This document shows positions 5,067 through 12,745 of a stretch of DNA of 63,313 bases, one piece after another. The position numbers and the translations under genes were made by a program. The notes under the pieces were generated by a model. It was not told where the DNA came from. It saw only the letters and a program-made list of their open reading frames with translations, and did no database searches. The first letter of the stretch is position 1. Each line of letters opens with the position of its first letter. Source of the stretch: Candidatus Zixiibacteriota bacterium (GTDB lineage Bacteria; Zixibacteria; MSB-5A5; GN15; FEB-12); the NCBI GenBank assembly GCA_040753875.1, contig JBFMDV010000024.1, forward strand, positions 79,970-143,282, written 5' to 3'.

Positions 5067-5100
5067 AGTGCCGGCTATGTATTGCCGGCACTTTTTCTTT
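5067..5100 (+). terminator. Rho-independent terminator
   Basis: A perfect 9-bp stem AGTGCCGGC (5067-5075) / GCCGGCACT (5084-5092) with an 8-base loop is followed by TTTTCTTT. It isolates the gene ending at 5045 from the trp operon. Confidence 0.88.
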
Positions 5101-5140
5101 GGAAATTTGGAAAATGATCGACGTACTCCAAGATTTGCAC

Positions 5141-5168
5141 TTGACAATTTGAGAATGTTGATTACATT
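5141..5168 (+). promoter_or_regulatory. Putative trp operon promoter
   Basis: A consensus TTGACA (5141-5146), a 16-base spacer and TACATT (5163-5168). Transcription would start near 5175, only a few bases before the leader-peptide ATG at 5178. No Shine-Dalgarno sequence is present, so the leader may be translated from an almost leaderless mRNA. Confidence 0.6.
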
Positions 5169-5177
5169 AGTACACAA

Positions 5178-5285
5178 ATGAACACGATCACTCTTGCAGC
5201 CGCTGTTCTCATGTCCGCCACTCTAATCAATTGGAGTTGGTGGCGTCTGTATACCAGGGATAGTGGCGTTGTGATTGTGAAATAG
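5178..5285 (+). CDS. trpL: trp leader peptide (35 aa)
   Basis: A 35-codon ORF directly upstream of trpE with a cluster of tryptophan codons: residues 18-22 read Asn-Trp-Ser-Trp-Trp (TGG at 5232-5234, 5238-5240, 5241-5243). It ends with TAG 24 bases before the terminator stem. Ribosome stalling at these codons when charged tRNA-Trp is scarce is the established mechanism of trp attenuation. No ribosome-binding site is visible. The identification rests on the Trp run, the hairpins around it and the position. Confidence 0.85.
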   Translation: MNTITLAAAVLMSATLINWSWWRLYTRDSGVVIVK

Positions 5286-5339
5286 CACCAAAGGGACAAC
5301 AAATCCAACCCGCTATCCGAAGGATGGCGGGTTTTTTTG
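5216..5339 (+). promoter_or_regulatory. trp transcription attenuator (pause, antiterminator and terminator hairpins)
   Basis: Three mutually exclusive pairings are visible. Pause (1:2): CGCCACT (5216-5222) pairs with AGTGGCG (5262-5268). Antiterminator (2:3): GGATAGTGGCGTTG (5258-5271) pairs with CAACCCGCTATCC (5306-5318), with a single bulged C. Terminator (3:4): CCCGCTATCC (5309-5318) pairs with GGATGGCGGG (5322-5331) around a GAA loop, followed by seven T (5332-5338). The Trp codons lie between segments 1 and 2, so a ribosome stalled there frees segment 2 to form the antiterminator. The geometry matches the E. coli-type trp attenuator. Confidence 0.88.
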
Positions 5340-5348
5340 TGGCTGTAT

Positions 5349-6821
5349 ATGAGTTTCCTGGACTCCATACTCGCGATTAAGCCCGGCGCGAAGTTGCCGC
5401 TCCGGGTTGAGGAGATCCATCTGCCCGGAGATCTGGAGACACCTGTTTCCGCCTATCTGAAACTGAAGTCGGTAGGCGCACGTTTTCTTCTGGAGTCAGC
5501 CGAAGATCCGACCTCGATCGGCCGATATTCGTTCATTGGCATTACGCCCTCCCTCCTCTTGCGGATTGAACGGGACAAAACGGTGGTAATGACCGGGGCA
5601 GAGCAGACCGCAATTCCGCATGGTTCGTCCACCGATCCATTCACCGGCATCGGGACTATTCTCGATCGATGCCGGATCGACGGAGCAGCTTCCGATCTGC
5701 CTCTGCTGGGCGGGATGGTCGGATATGTCGGCTACGAGATTGTCGAGTTCTTCGAGCCGACCCTTCAGGGTCTGCTTGCCCGCGCGGAACAGCCCTACGG
5801 GCTTTTCTATTTCGTGGACACGCTGCTGGTCTTCGACCACTTCAGCAGATCCCTGCGACTCGTACAGCTTAACGCCGGTTCCAGCGAGGACAGCTCCAAC
5901 TCGCCACAGATTCCTCTCGAAACGATCCGCCACGCCCTCATGATGCCACTACCCGATGCGAAACCGTTCGCGCGGAGAAATGGCAACGGCGGCAGAACAT
6001 CGGTCGACCAGAACGGCTATGAACGGATGGTCGCATCCGGAAAACGTCACATCGGGTATGGCGATATCTTCCAGGTCGTACTCTCGCAGCATCTGGAACA
6101 AGAGAGCTCGGTCGATGGATTCGAAATTTACCGGGCTCTTCGCATGGTGAACCCCTCTCCATACATGTTCTATTTGGACTTTGGCGATATCGAGTTGATC
6201 GGCTCTTCACCTGAGGCAATGGTTAAACTACGCGGTGATCAGGCGATTATTCGTCCTATTGCCGGCACCAGACCTCGAGGGCAGACCGCCGACGATGACG
6301 CACGCCTCGCAGCAGAACTGAGCCGGGACGAGAAGGAGTGCGCCGAACATGTCATGCTGGTGGACCTGGCACGGAATGACCTTGGTCGCGTCTGCCGGTT
6401 CGGAAGCATCGAAACACCGCAGTTCATGCAATTGGAGCAGTACTCACACGTGATGCACTTGACCTCCACCGTGACCGGCCGGCTGCGCTCCGGCTGCACG
6501 TCACTGGATCTGTTCCGGTCTGCATTCCCTGCTGGTACGGTCTCCGGAGCGCCCAAGCTCAGAGCCATGGAAATAATCGCCGATCTGGAGCGGTCAGTCC
6601 GTGGGCCCTATGCAGGTGCTGTCGGCTACCTGTCGCTGTCCGGCGATCTGGACATGTGCATCACAATCAGGACTATCGTGAAACGCAGCAGCCTGCTTCG
6701 CCTGCAAGCCGGTGCGGGTATAGTCGCCGACTCTGTACCTGAACGGGAGTATATGGAGACCTGGAACAAAATGGCGGCGCTTCGGGAAGCCATCAGGAGA
6801 GCCGAAGAGAGGTGGTCATGA
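5349..6821 (+). CDS. trpE: Anthranilate synthase component I
   Basis: About 490 residues. It converts chorismate and ammonia to anthranilate with TrpG. The N-terminal LLESAE motif is the tryptophan feedback site. The chorismate-binding half has SPYMFYLDFGDIELIGSSPE, IRPIAGTRPRG, DEKECAEHVMLVDLARND and FPAGTVSGAPKLRAMEII. The ATG at 5349 begins only ten bases after the attenuator U-tract and has no clear ribosome site; the frame extends to a TTG at 5337 inside the terminator tail. The stop overlaps the trpG ATG (ATGA), so E and G are coupled. First structural gene of trpEGDCFBA-aroF. Confidence 0.95.
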   Translation: MSFLDSILAIKPGAKLPLRVEEIHLPGDLETPVSAYLKLKSVGARFLLESAEDPTSIGRYSFIGITPSLLLRIERDKTVVMTGAEQTAIPHGSSTDPFTGIGTILDRCRIDGAASDLPLLGGMVGYVGYEIVEFFEPTLQGLLARAEQPYGLFYFVDTLLVFDHFSRSLRLVQLNAGSSEDSSNSPQIPLETIRHALMMPLPDAKPFARRNGNGGRTSVDQNGYERMVASGKRHIGYGDIFQVVLSQHLEQESSVDGFEIYRALRMVNPSPYMFYLDFGDIELIGSSPEAMVKLRGDQAIIRPIAGTRPRGQTADDDARLAAELSRDEKECAEHVMLVDLARNDLGRVCRFGSIETPQFMQLEQYSHVMHLTSTVTGRLRSGCTSLDLFRSAFPAGTVSGAPKLRAMEIIADLERSVRGPYAGAVGYLSLSGDLDMCITIRTIVKRSSLLRLQAGAGIVADSVPEREYMETWNKMAALREAIRRAEERWS

Positions 6822-7387
6822 TCCTGGTCATTGACAATTACGACTCCTTCACCTACAACCTTGTCCAGTACTTTGGCGTGCTCACCTCCGATGTAAGTGT
6901 GGTCCGCCCCCACGAGGTTACGGTTGACGACATCGCTGGCATGCAGCCGCAGCGGATCGTCATCTCCCCAGGACCGGGACACCCCGATCAAGCGAAACTC
7001 TCCACCGAGGTCATTTCTCGCTTTCACGGCGAACTCCCGATCCTCGGCGTCTGCCTCGGACACCAGTGCATAGGAGCCGCCTTCGGCGCAGAGATACGCG
7101 TAGCCGAACGGCTGGTTCATGGCAAGACTTCAGAAATCTACCACAAGGGAAAAGGGATACTCGCGGGACTGCCGAATCCGTTTCGTGCCACTCGGTATCA
7201 CTCGCTGGTGGTAGCGGAGGAGACACTTCCAGACTCCCTTGAGGTGACGGCATACACTTCTGACGGCGAGGTCATGGGGCTGCAACATCGCACCTCCCCA
7301 CTCTTTGGTGTCCAGTTTCACCCGGAATCGATTCTGACAAGAGAAGGGATGAGGATATTGAGCAGTTTCCTGGAGGTCTCACCATGA
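6818..7387 (+). CDS. trpG: Anthranilate synthase component II (glutamine amidotransferase)
   Basis: 189 residues from the ATG at 6818, which overlaps the trpE stop and has GAGAGG at 6807-6812. A class I amidotransferase: nucleophile Cys in GVCLGHQ and the His-Glu pair in FGVQFHPES. It begins with the usual ILVIDNYDSFTYNLVQYF. It supplies ammonia to TrpE and, like related PabA proteins, could also serve folate synthesis. It overlaps trpD by four bases (ATGA). Confidence 0.95.
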   Translation: MILVIDNYDSFTYNLVQYFGVLTSDVSVVRPHEVTVDDIAGMQPQRIVISPGPGHPDQAKLSTEVISRFHGELPILGVCLGHQCIGAAFGAEIRVAERLVHGKTSEIYHKGKGILAGLPNPFRATRYHSLVVAEETLPDSLEVTAYTSDGEVMGLQHRTSPLFGVQFHPESILTREGMRILSSFLEVSP

Positions 7388-8400
7388 TAAAGGAAATGCT
7401 TGCCCGGCTTGCCGAGGGAGAGCACTTGGCTCGGTTGGACTGTGAGTCATTCATTCGATCGGTGGCCGTAGGTGATGTCAGCGATGCCCAGGTTGCAGCC
7501 TTTCTTACCGGCCTGAAAGCAAAGGGAGAGACCGTCGAAGAGGTGGCCGGCTGTGTGTTGGCACTCCGCGCCAGTATGCAGCGGGTGGAGCATACGCGGA
7601 CAATGGTCTTCGACTGCTGCGGCACTGGCGGCGACGGCACAGGATCGTTCAATTTTTCGACCGCCGCTTCCCTGATCGTTGCTGCCTGCGGCATTCCAAC
7701 TGCGAAACACGGCAACCGGGCGGTCAGCTCCTCGTGCGGCTCCGCCGATCTGTTCGAAGCAAGCGGCGTTAAGATTGATCTGACGGCCCAACAGGCGGCG
7801 CGATTGTTAGATGACATCGGGTATTGTTTTCTATTTGCGCCCGTCTACCATACGGCGACAAAGAAGGTGGCCGAAGTGCGACGCCAACTCGGTTTCCGCA
7901 CGCTGTTCAATTTGATAGGGCCGCTCCTCAACCCGGCCGTCGCCACCCACCAGATGATCGGCACTCCGAACAGCCGAGTAGCCTCACTACTGGCTGAAGT
8001 AAGTCGCGCGGTAGGTGACAATCGGGTGTTCACGTTCTACAATAGCTGCGGCTTCGACGAGATTCTCCCAACAGGACTGACCATGGTTCACTCAAGCACG
8101 CATTCGACAAGCAAGGCGCTTCCGCTTCAATTACCTTCTCACCTCGCTAACGGCAATGACCCGCACGACTTCCAGGGCGGCGACAGGGTGCACAACGCGG
8201 CCATATTGAAGGGCATACTTGACGGTGATGAATCACCATTCCTTCAGGTATCGCTTCTCAATGCCGCCTTCGGTTTGACCGTCGCCGGCCTGACGGACAA
8301 CCTCGACGAGGCCTTTCGCATCGCTCATGACTCGGTCAGCTCGGGCAGGACACGTCGATTATTTGATCAATACCGCAGCGCAACACAGGCGATATCGTGA
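7384..8400 (+). CDS. trpD: Anthranilate phosphoribosyltransferase
   Basis: 338 residues, full length for the family. It transfers phosphoribosyl from PRPP to anthranilate. Signatures are the PRPP-binding CGTGGDGTGSFNFSTAAS, KHGNRAVSSSCGSADLFEA and FNLIGPLLNPA. A GGAGGT site lies upstream within trpG, and the start overlaps the trpG stop by four bases. It is not fused to TrpG, unlike in E. coli. Confidence 0.95.
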   Translation: MIKEMLARLAEGEHLARLDCESFIRSVAVGDVSDAQVAAFLTGLKAKGETVEEVAGCVLALRASMQRVEHTRTMVFDCCGTGGDGTGSFNFSTAASLIVAACGIPTAKHGNRAVSSSCGSADLFEASGVKIDLTAQQAARLLDDIGYCFLFAPVYHTATKKVAEVRRQLGFRTLFNLIGPLLNPAVATHQMIGTPNSRVASLLAEVSRAVGDNRVFTFYNSCGFDEILPTGLTMVHSSTHSTSKALPLQLPSHLANGNDPHDFQGGDRVHNAAILKGILDGDESPFLQVSLLNAAFGLTVAGLTDNLDEAFRIAHDSVSSGRTRRLFDQYRSATQAIS

Positions 8401-9173
8401 TGCTTGACCGAATCCTGACCGACGTAAGAACTTCGCTGGCAAGTCGCGATACTGCCGACTGGCGCATGGAACTGGAACAGATGATAGCCCATAGCGATGT
8501 TCGTCCGTCCTTTCACGATGCGATCTCGCTCAATGGCAAACACTTTATCTGTGAGATCAAACGGCGTTCTCCGTCTGAAGGAGTCCTTAACCCGGAAGCG
8601 GACATTCGCGATATAGCGAGTGAGTACGTGCATGGTGGCGCCGCGGCTATCAGTGTGCTGACCGAACCGGTGCACTTCGGCGGATCGCTGGATGACCTCA
8701 GTACCGTCGCAGACAATGTCCCTCTGCCCGTTCTGAGAAAGGACTTTGTGATTGACGATGTACAGATTGTGGAAGCCAGGGCATTTGGGGCCTCGGCAGT
8801 TCTGCTTATTGTATCGATTTTGTCAGATGCACAGCTTGCCAATCTCATAGCCAAATGCCGACACCACCACCTCACACCGTTGGTGGAGATACACTCCGAG
8901 GAAGAACTGAAGCGCGCGTTAGCCGCGGGTGCCGATGTCATTGGCGTCAATAATCGGGACCTCAAGTCACTAAGGGTAGACCTTCAAACCTCCGAACGAC
9001 TCCTCCCGCTCATTCCTCCTGGTGCCGTTCGGGTCGCTGAAAGCGGTATGCACTCCACTCACGATACCGATCGCATGTTCTCGGCAGGGGCGAACGCCGT
9101 GCTTATTGGCTCTTCGCTTATGAAAAGCCGAAACCGCGTCGAGGCACTCGCCGAGTTCAGGAGAGCGCGGTGA
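8397..9173 (+). CDS. trpC: Indole-3-glycerol phosphate synthase
   Basis: 257-258 residues, starting at GTG 8397 (overlapping the trpD stop as GTGA) or ATG 8400. A TIM-barrel enzyme converting carboxyphenylamino-deoxyribulose phosphate to indole-3-glycerol phosphate. Motifs are FICEIKRRSPSEG, VLRKDFVIDDVQI, VGVNNRDLKSLRVD-like (GVNNRDL) and VAESGMHS. A stand-alone TrpC, separate from TrpF. Confidence 0.95.
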   Translation: MMLDRILTDVRTSLASRDTADWRMELEQMIAHSDVRPSFHDAISLNGKHFICEIKRRSPSEGVLNPEADIRDIASEYVHGGAAAISVLTEPVHFGGSLDDLSTVADNVPLPVLRKDFVIDDVQIVEARAFGASAVLLIVSILSDAQLANLIAKCRHHHLTPLVEIHSEEELKRALAAGADVIGVNNRDLKSLRVDLQTSERLLPLIPPGAVRVAESGMHSTHDTDRMFSAGANAVLIGSSLMKSRNRVEALAEFRRAR

Positions 9174-9757
9174 TAATCAAGATTTGTGGTGTCACCTCGG
9201 CGCACGACGCCCACCTTTGTGCGGACTCCGGAGCCGACCTGATCGGCGTGGTGCTTTCGGACTCCCCCCGGCGGACATCGTTGGAGGCATTGAATGGCAT
9301 CATCGATGCGGTAGGGTCCGGAGGTAGCGTGGTCGGCGTGTTCGCGGCACCCGGTGATCTTGAGCAGTTCGATGCCGGATGCCAAACCGAGCTCGACTAC
9401 TATCAGACCTATTTTGACAGGTCGCTCGTCACGGTTCGCCAACCTAAGCGAGCATGGATTCGGGCCAAACGTGTGAAACAGAACGTTGAGTTGAGCGCAG
9501 GGTCGGATATTACTCTCCTCGACTTCAAGGATTTTCAGTCTGACGAACTCCTGTCCGAATTGCGGAAGTATTATGACAAGATAACCGACACAACATTGGT
9601 GGCCGGCGGGCTTACTGTCGGCAACATCAGTTCCGTGCTGGCCGCGGTTCGACCGCTCGGTGTCGATGTCGCCCGTGGCACGGAAAAAAGCGCAGGGATC
9701 AAGGACCCGGAGTTGGTGCGAGAGTTCATAGCGAGGATCAAGCATGCAGCGAGTTGA
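9170..9757 (+). CDS. trpF: Phosphoribosylanthranilate isomerase
   Basis: 195 residues starting at GTG 9170 with a four-base overlap with trpC. It performs the Amadori rearrangement of phosphoribosylanthranilate. It starts with [13 protein letters not shown] (catalytic Cys in KICGVT) and ends with [20 protein letters not shown] and AGIKD, the phosphate-binding end of the barrel. Family DVSSGVE reads DVARGTE here. It is slightly short and somewhat diverged but intact. It overlaps trpB by 14 bases. Confidence 0.92.
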
Positions 9758-10922
9758 GAAGTGGTATTTCGGCCGGTTTGGCGGCAGATTTGTTCCGGAA
9801 ACTCTGGTGTCGGCGCTTGATGAGCTCGAAGCAGCATTCGAGGCATCGCAGAATGATACGTCCTTTGGTGCCGAACTCGACTATCTGCTGAAAACCTATG
9901 TTGGCCGGCCCACGCCGTTGTACCTGGCTCGCAATCTCACTGCCGACTGGGGTGGCGCGAAGATCTACCTGAAGCGCGAGGATCTCGCCCACACCGGCGC
10001 GCACAAGATCAACAACTGCGTCGGACAGGCGCTGTTGGCAAAACGCCTTGGCAAGACACGAGTGGTAGCCGAAACCGGCGCCGGACAGCACGGCACCGCG
10101 ACCGCAGCGGCATGCGCCATGCTCGGACTTGAATGTGTCGTCTACATGGGCACTCATGATATGGCCCGTCAGCAACCAAACGTCCAACGGATGCATCATC
10201 TTGGCGCCGAGGTACGCGAGGTGTCCGCCGGACTCGGGACGCTCAAAGAAGCAACCTCCGAGGCGATTCGCGACTGGGTGACCAACGTCCGTGGCACATA
10301 TTATGTTATCGGCTCCGCCGTGGGACCACATCCGTATCCAAAGATCGTCCGCACTTTTCAGTCGGTGATCGGCCGTGAAACCCGCGCCCAGTTTCTGGAA
10401 ATCGAAAGTCGACTCCCTGACCACATTGTCGCCTGCGTCGGAGGCGGCTCCAATGCTATCGGCATCTTCTCGGCATTCCTCGAAGATTCCTCCGTCCGAT
10501 TGACAGGAGTCGAATCGGGCGGCGAGTCACTCGATTGCGGTAAGCATGCCGCCTCGCTCACCAAAGGACGGCCCGGTATTCTTCACGGCGCGCTCACGTA
10601 TGTACTTCAGGATGAACACGGCCAGATCGATATCACGCATACGATTTCGGCCGGACTCGATTATCCGGGCGTAGGTCCGGAGCACGCGGCACTTCGGGAT
10701 AGTGGGCGCGTCCGGTATGTCACCGTTCCGGACCGTGCGGCTGTCGCAGCCTTCCGGGAACTCTGCCGAAAGGAAGGGATCATCCCTGCGCTTGAGTCGA
10801 GCTTTGCGCTGGCGCACGCACGCGAGATTGCCGGTTCCATGTCCGGTGAGCAGGCGATCGTGGTAAATCTTTCGGGTCGGGGCGACAAGGACCTGGGATC
10901 GGTGCCGAGTCATGAAGACTGA
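9744..10922 (+). CDS. trpB: Tryptophan synthase beta subunit
   Basis: 392 residues. A PLP enzyme joining indole and serine. The PLP Lys lies in [14 protein letters not shown]; the substrate loop is [12 protein letters not shown]; the phosphate-binding loop is [10 protein letters not shown]; and GRGDKD is at the C terminus. The N terminus [12 protein letters not shown] matches TrpB1-type subunits that partner TrpA. It overlaps trpF by 14 bases and trpA by 11. Confidence 0.97.
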
Positions 10923-11706
10923 ACTGTCCGGAAAGCTATGCTCGCTCGCCCGATCCGGCCACGCGGCCCTGGTGCCGTTCGTTACCTGTCACTATCCCGA
11001 TGCGTATCGTTTCGACCAGGTCGTTGAGGTTGTTCTTGAAACCGGCTGCGACCTGCTCGAGATCGGATTTCCTCACTCGGACCCGTTGGCCGACGGCCCC
11101 ACAATCCAGCGCTCTTCCCATATAGCGCACGGCAACGGCTTTACGCCCGGACGCGGCTTCGATTCGATTCAGCACCTCAAGGCGCATTCAGATATTCCCA
11201 TAGTCATCATGTGCTATGCAAACGTGATCTACCAATTTGGTTACGAGCTGTTTGTCGAAAAATGCTTGGACTCCGGTGTGAGTGGCGTGATAGTACCAGA
11301 CATGATTTTCGAGGAAGGGGCCGAGCTTCGCGAAGTCTGCCTGCGGCGAAACGTGAGTTTTATTCCGTTGATCGCTCCCACTACGCCATTTGACCGCGCA
11401 GCGGCCATTGCCGAGTCGGCCGAGGGATTCGTGTATTTTGTCAGTGTCACCGGCACCACCGGTGCGCGGTCATCAATTGGGTCTGATGCCGCCACCACAG
11501 TAGCATCGATTAAGAAACAATCACCTGTGCCGGTCTATACGGGATTTGGCATATCCACGCCTGCCCTGGCGAGACAGGCAGCCAAGTTCAGTGACGGTGT
11601 TATTATCGGAAGCAAGTTGATAGAATGTATCGATGCCGACAATGGAGCCGGAGGATTCACCACTCTCCGCTCATTCCTCACGGAAGTTCGTGCTGCTCTG
11701 CCGTAG
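10912..11706 (+). CDS. trpA: Tryptophan synthase alpha subunit
   Basis: 264 residues. It cleaves indole-3-glycerol phosphate to indole and glyceraldehyde-3-phosphate. The catalytic Glu is in [19 protein letters not shown] (Glu before IGFP) and the catalytic Asp is in DPLADG. The phosphate-binding loops VTGTTGAR and YTGFGIST are present. Its start lies inside the end of trpB. Confidence 0.96.
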
Positions 11707-11722
11707 AAGGAGACAAACATAT

Positions 11723-12745
11723 ATGATGCTCGTAATAATGAAACGGACGGCAACTACAAAGGAGACTGCGGCAGTTATCAAGTACATCGAAGGGTTGGGC
11801 CTTCGGCCCCATGTCTCGCATGGCGCCGACAAGACAATAATTGGCGCAAACGGCATCGATCAGCTGCCCGACACACAACTGCTCGCCTCACTGCCAAGTG
11901 TCGAGTCGGTGGTGCCGGTTCAGAAACCGTACAAACTGGCATCGCGGGAGTTCCAACCGGATAGCTCAGTCGTGCCGGTCAACGGCGTCAGGATCGGAAA
12001 CGGCGGGGTAGTTGTAATGGCGGGTCCTTGCGCGGTGGAGAGTTTCGATCAGACGCTGGTGGCCGCCAGGGGTGCCAAGGCCGCGGGTGCCTCGGTGATT
12101 CGAGGAGGAGCATTCAAACCGAGAACCTCTCCCTATTCGTTTCAGGGGCTTGGTGAGGAGGGCCTGAAAATACTTGCCAGAGTGCGCGAGGAAGTTGGCC
12201 TGCCGATCGTCTCCGAGTGTCTTTCCGAGGATGATGTTGAATTGGTGTCGTCATACGTCGACATCATTCAGATCGGTGCCCGCAACATGCAGAACTTCGC
12301 CATGCTTGAACGGGTGGGGAAGCAGTCCCGCCCGGTGCTGCTCAAACGCGGCATGATGTCGACTATCGAAGAACTACTGATGTCGGCGGAGTACATCCTG
12401 GCAAACGGGAACAAAAATGTCATCCTCTGTGAGCGGGGTATCAGGACATTCGACAAATTCTCGCGGAACACCTGTGATATCGCTGCCGTCCCGGCCCTCA
12501 AGCGGCTTTCGCACCTCCCGGTGATCGTTGACCCCTCGCATGCCACCGGGGATCGCTATCTGATCTCACCGGTTGCCCTCGCGGCGGTTGCTGCTGGTGC
12601 CGACGGGTTACTCATCGAGGTCCATCCGGACCCGGACAAAGCTCTTTGCGATGGCGCGCAGTCACTGGATTTGGTGGAGTTTGCCGGTCTGATGAACAGC
12701 GTACGGGCCATCGCGAAAGCGATCAACGAAACTTCAGGGAAGTGA
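11723..12745 (+). CDS. aroF: 3-deoxy-7-phosphoheptulonate (DAHP) synthase, type I beta
   Basis: 340 residues from ATG 11723 (AGAAGGAG at 11705-11712). It condenses phosphoenolpyruvate and erythrose-4-phosphate, the first step to chorismate. The short N-terminal ferredoxin-like regulatory domain (MLVIMKRTATTKETAAVIKY) and the core AGPCAVES, RGGAFKPRTSPYSFQGL, QIGARNMQNF, LLKRGMMST and VDPSHATG identify the Thermotoga/Bacillus-like I-beta class. It lies 16 bases after trpA, so precursor supply is co-regulated with the trp attenuator. Its last 12 bases overlap the convergent nfnB-like gene. Confidence 0.95.
   Translation: MMLVIMKRTATTKETAAVIKYIEGLGLRPHVSHGADKTIIGANGIDQLPDTQLLASLPSVESVVPVQKPYKLASREFQPDSSVVPVNGVRIGNGGVVVMAGPCAVESFDQTLVAARGAKAAGASVIRGGAFKPRTSPYSFQGLGEEGLKILARVREEVGLPIVSECLSEDDVELVSSYVDIIQIGARNMQNFAMLERVGKQSRPVLLKRGMMSTIEELLMSAEYILANGNKNVILCERGIRTFDKFSRNTCDIAAVPALKRLSHLPVIVDPSHATGDRYLISPVALAAVAAGADGLLIEVHPDPDKALCDGAQSLDLVEFAGLMNSVRAIAKAINETSGK

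Follow-up and report, generated by a model that had tools for sequence, protein, structure and literature searches.

Here we report that the region directly upstream of trpE in a 63,313-nucleotide stretch of DNA from Candidatus Zixiibacteriota bacterium (hereafter the window) very probably attenuates transcription of the trp operon by a ribosome-mediated mechanism. The whole element occupies positions 5141-5338 and ends 10 nt 5' of trpE. Its parts, conservation in relatives, covariation and spacing can be read from the sequences, and transcription start, ribosome stalling and regulation are predicted from them. Such an attenuator had been proposed in an initial annotation, and the promoter, leader, antiterminator and terminator listed there were all found at the places given.

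The element begins with a sigma-70-like promoter (TTGACA at 5141-5146, a 16-nt spacer and TACATT at 5163-5168) which matches the consensus at 10 of 12 positions. The ATG of the leader peptide gene, trpL, lies 9 nt past the -10 box and is not preceded by a Shine-Dalgarno (SD) sequence. Three Trp codons start at 5232, 5238 and 5241, the last of them followed after 13 nt by strand 2. The 2:3 antiterminator consists of GGATAGTGG-c-GTTG (5258-5271) paired with CAACCCGCTATCC (5306-5318), giving 13 pairs with one bulged C; its duplex energy is -18.6 kcal/mol, compared with -9.5 +- 2.2 in shuffled sequences, and was equalled by 2 of 1000 shuffles. The terminator, AACCCGCTATCC-GAA-GGATGGCGGGTT at 5307-5333, has 12 pairs and runs into a T run at 5332-5338. 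The predicted fold of the whole RNA from 5175 to 5339 is 5.2 sd more stable than those of its dinucleotide shuffles.

Table 1. Features of the candidate trp attenuator and the downstream operon in the window.
Feature	Position	Strand	Basis
Sigma-70-type promoter	5141..5168	+	TTGACA-16-TACATT; predicted start 5175-5178
Leader peptide ORF (trpL), 35 codons, MNTITLAAAVLMSATLINWSWWRLYTRDSGVVIVK	5178..5285	+	ATG 5178, TAG 5283-5285; homologous leaders in 18 relatives
Strand 1, best candidate, GCCGCTGTTCTC	5199..5210	+	Partner 5257-5267; not uniformly conserved
Regulatory codons Trp-Ser-Trp-Trp	5232..5243	+	Trp cluster here in every trpE leader found
Strand 2 of antiterminator, GGATAGTGGcGTTG	5257..5271	+	Partner 5306-5318; covariation over 26 distinct sequences
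Strands 3:4, intrinsic terminator with T7	5307..5338	+	-19.8 kcal/mol; pair changes in relatives
trpE, anthranilate synthase component I, first gene and predicted target of regulation	5349..6821	+	TIGR00564 530.8 bits, above cut-off
trpG, trpD, trpC, trpF, trpB, trpA in series	6812..11706	+	trpG_papA, trpD, TrpC, trpB and trpA models over cut-off
DAHP synthase after trpA	11738..12745	+	Over cut-off for NF006421 (480 bits) and TIGR01361 (392 bits)

According to the proposed mechanism, transcription would start at the leader AUG or no more than about 3 nt away from it, and a ribosome would initiate on the leaderless RNA. Under a shortage of charged tRNA-Trp, the ribosome would stall at the regulatory codons with its 3' edge just before strand 2 (5257), leaving strand 2 free to pair with strand 3, and polymerase would continue into trpE. 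With ample Trp, the ribosome would reach the stop codon and strand 2 would be either masked by it or paired with strand 1 instead; strand 3 would then pair with strand 4, and transcription would end at the T run near 5338.

To analyze the distribution of the element, we searched for TrpE across 60 relatives, then built a covariance model from 12 elements and ran it over 132 genomes of the phylum; the genomic contexts were inspected individually. The element was detected before trpE in this genome and in 18 others of the phylum, belonging to families f1, f2, f4, f5, f10 and f18. The trpE elements have in common a Trp cluster (WW to WWWW, or WRW, in the relatives) and similar strands, which resemble GATAGTGG in the case of strand 2, CCCGCTATC for strand 3 and GATAGCGGG for strand 4. 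The leader peptide is otherwise poorly conserved, except for the codons encoding strand 2. In 20 of 21 trpE elements, 12-19 nt separate strand 2 from the last Trp codon, which is the space that a stalled ribosome occupies. Five weak R1 matches (L126, L128, L129, L156 and L157) were left out: they have no Trp/Tyr leader and resemble ordinary terminators or chance matches.

Conserved Trp codons and compensatory base changes in relatives had been named in the initial annotation as support for the attenuator, and both are present. Among 26 distinct sequences, 94.6% of the cells of helix 3:4 and 88.8% of those of helix 2:3 are paired, with two-sided changes at 10 of 12 and 5 of 10 pairs, respectively; the alignment of strands 2, 3 and 4 was assembled by hand, so that these pair counts are biased towards the structures. 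None of 500 shuffles matched the covariation scores of either helix, and slid control structures were only 27-52% paired. In a duplex test on unaligned sequence, for which the terminator arms were picked by eye, 23 of 26 elements had a 2:3 duplex that outperformed shuffles (p<0.05); the duplexes of three trpE elements (G013, G028 and G076) had no such advantage. Since both of the mutually exclusive helices show covariation, both have been maintained, which attenuation requires but simple termination would not. Taken with the parts, the conservation in 18 relatives and the spacing, this supports the ribosome-mediated mechanism first proposed for this locus.

It is highly improbable that the element is instead a simple intrinsic terminator, or another RNA switch such as a T-box, a TRAP target or a riboswitch, which happens to carry a short ORF. 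The terminator is strong by itself, as such a reading would predict, but Trp clusters occur in all homologues, the antiterminator covaries, and Tyr codons take the place of the Trp codons before aroH. In addition, no Rfam family reached threshold in the element. No T-box was matched at the gathering threshold in the window, nor at E-values up to 10 in 5100-5400, and the T-box and TRAP readings were dropped on these grounds.

The least certain part of the attenuator is strand 1 and the protector hairpin 1:2, which is plausible from the predicted pairings. The initial annotation had paired 5216-5222 with 5262-5268. This perfect 7-mer does exist, but the pairing of 5199-5210 with 5257-5267 is longer and stronger (-16.9 kcal/mol, equalled by 13 of 300 shuffles). 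A 1:2 pairing with p<=0.05 against shuffles was observed in only 9 of 27 elements.

A leaderless start had also been suggested for trpL, and the comparison of promoters supports this suggestion. TTGACA and a 16-nt spacer recur in each of the 24 homologous leaders whose promoter is clear, and most of these leaders fall into two clean classes. In the first, found in 11 of 24 leaders from five families including the window leader, the -10 box lies 6-9 nt from the start codon and none of the 11 has an SD core (trpE leaders of G000, G008, G025, G013, G054, G060, G083, G082 and G096; aroH leaders of G013 and G120). In the second, this distance is 20-27 nt and an SD core is present in 10 of 10 leaders. 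Fisher's test for the split gave a P-value of about 3e-6, a figure to be read with the relatedness of the sequences in mind, which are not independent. The lineage does use SD sequences, because 14 of 43 long ORFs of the window have an SD core at the first ATG, compared with 7.4% of random places.

Alternatively, the attenuator may be real while its RNA starts further upstream, so that the leader is initiated without an SD and is not leaderless. In three of the 24 leaders, all from one genus, the start codon is 52-72 nt away from the -10 box and there is no clear SD, and the ATG of trpE, 10 nt past the terminator T run, likewise lacks an SD (5329-5351 inspected). On the other hand, TTGACA, the 16-nt spacing and a TATAAT-like box are kept 6-9 nt from the ATG in the 11 leaders without SD, and the leaders with 20-27 nt consistently have one. 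We therefore consider an upstream start unlikely. The trpL start is probably leaderless or preceded by a 5' UTR of 2-3 nt, the latter being as likely as zero given an ATG 9 nt from the -10 box. In two Deltaproteobacterial W-run leaders upstream of trpE (L071 and L084), the ATG lies about 7 nt past a -10-like box; judging from these, leaderless starts of trp leaders may be frequent outside the phylum as well.

The layout of the element resembles several known systems. In the Escherichia coli trp system, the leader has an SD sequence and the TrpR repressor acts in addition, whereas in the window leader no SD was found, and TrpR (PF01371) had no match in this genome (G000, rated 100% complete). 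In total, 12 genomes have TrpR and 19 have the attenuator with zero overlap, though so small an overlap would be expected by chance. The E. coli attenuator (RF00513, Trp_leader) shares the Trp codons, the 2:3 antiterminator and the 3:4 terminator. It aligned below threshold, with the whole model covering 5232-5340 at 22 bits (E 0.028), and did not reach the gathering threshold of 41 bits.

Classical trp attenuators are known in Corynebacterium and Streptomyces (PMC1262725), and the leader of the S. lividans trp attenuator is transcribed leaderless (PMC8079986). The Streptomyces trpL1-trpE system (PMC8079986; PMC1262725) is alike in having a leader with a Trp run, alternative hairpins and a terminator directly before trpE outside Proteobacteria, and its leaderless transcription is what is predicted here. 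The window element differs in belonging to another lineage, heading a complete trpEGDCFBA operon, and having a longer peptide of 35 aa and another hairpin sequence. In Sinorhizobium meliloti, the 5' end of the trpL RNA is the trpL AUG (PMC7298713), as predicted here, and attenuation operates without transcriptional repression, as it would in the window; its peptide is only 14 aa long, its only target is trpE(G), and functions in trans have been demonstrated. By analogy with rnTrpL/peTrpL of that species, the released RNA of about 160 nt or its peptide could act in trans besides attenuating in cis. The predicted layout is the same as there, with attenuation releasing a leaderless trpL RNA (PMC7298713), but apart from the Trp cluster and the strand-2-encoding codons the peptide shows little conservation, and such a role is unlikely.

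A survey in 2010 noted that leader-peptide systems had been known only in Proteobacteria and Actinobacteria, and added Firmicutes (PMC2965389). The mechanism proposed here is a textbook one, and the lineage is new for trp attenuation as far as we could find in the literature. The novelty is thus taxonomic rather than mechanistic, because trp attenuation with a leaderless leader outside Proteobacteria has already been published for Streptomyces (PMC8079986). An uncultured phylum thereby joins the lineages with leader-peptide attenuators, with good comparative evidence.

Downstream of the element, the seven trp genes are followed by a DAHP synthase gene, which is probably the last gene of the operon. 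TrpF was matched by phosphoribosylanthranilate isomerase models, but below their cut-offs. A search of G000 with the covariance model revealed no second attenuator of the same type at a convincing score. In the same genome, rated 100% complete, there was no match to AroH (PF07736), prephenate dehydratase (PF00800) or HisG (PF01634); the organism may synthesize Trp while being auxotrophic for Phe, Tyr and His.

Phylogenetic analysis of TrpE placed the attenuator-bearing proteins in one group together with a protein from a Planctomycetota-labelled metagenome-assembled genome (MAG) carrying a W-run leader of its own (L032; support 99/98). This group adjoins two proteobacterial sequences with W-run leaders (L067 and L102) and is separate from the TrpE type linked to dapF in the same family. 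The window TrpE clusters with the f5 genomes. Most other relatives of the family have a different trpE type, located next to an apparent dapF and without such a leader. One family thus holds two unrelated TrpE types, the attenuator-bearing operon type and the dapF-linked type. W-run leaders before trpE were also noticed by eye in MAGs labelled Acidobacteria, Spirochaetales and Deltaproteobacteria. The operon and the attenuator were likely transferred together, in a tree whose root and bootstrap values are not firm.

Beyond trpE, the model matched Tyr-rich leaders before genes for aroH-type chorismate mutase (PF07736) in G040, G019, G070, G013 and G120. Leaders of this kind with the same hairpin core are L137, L127, L130, L139, L158 and L178, the last of which (G010) was read by eye. 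A Trp-rich leader with hairpins was also detected before a TrpB-like (TrpB2) gene in G053 (L138, G053:C468:15815-15933; NF009057 718 bits). The best single piece of evidence that specificity is determined by the codons comes from the aroH element of G013 (L139), which aligns over its entire 200 bp with the trp attenuator of G008 (z 19 against shuffles). The promoter, the length of 34 codons and the stop are identical in the two, and TGG TGG is replaced by TAC TCG, beside further Tyr codons. Related switches in the lineage appear to have been re-tuned to tyrosine via codon swaps.

Two complete Trp attenuators in tandem were found before trpE in G037 (L135/L113, G037:C47:64572-64886) and in G043 (L115/L136, G043:C35:39343-39687). 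The tandem attenuators of Salmonella mgtCBR (PMC3641672) are similarly arranged in series; they rely on two distinct leader ORFs within a single operon, whereas the pairs in G037 and G043 are two Trp-codon elements. Besides the lineage, what is new is this surrounding family, with its tandem copies, the copy that precedes a TrpB-like gene and the versions with Tyr codons upstream of aroH. On balance, we favor the view that the attenuators for aromatic amino acids form a modular family of the phylum's own. Its members would often be leaderless, and a single hairpin core would have been re-targeted via the regulatory codons (Trp for trpE and the TrpB-like gene, Tyr for aroH) and duplicated in tandem, giving tighter control. 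The mixture of leaders with and without an SD on a shared, conserved core of promoter and hairpins, together with the Trp-to-Tyr switch in a 200-bp homologue, would offer a natural series for studying attenuator evolution and specificity change. In the first tandem copies of both G037 and G043, the stop codon of the leader lies inside strand 2.
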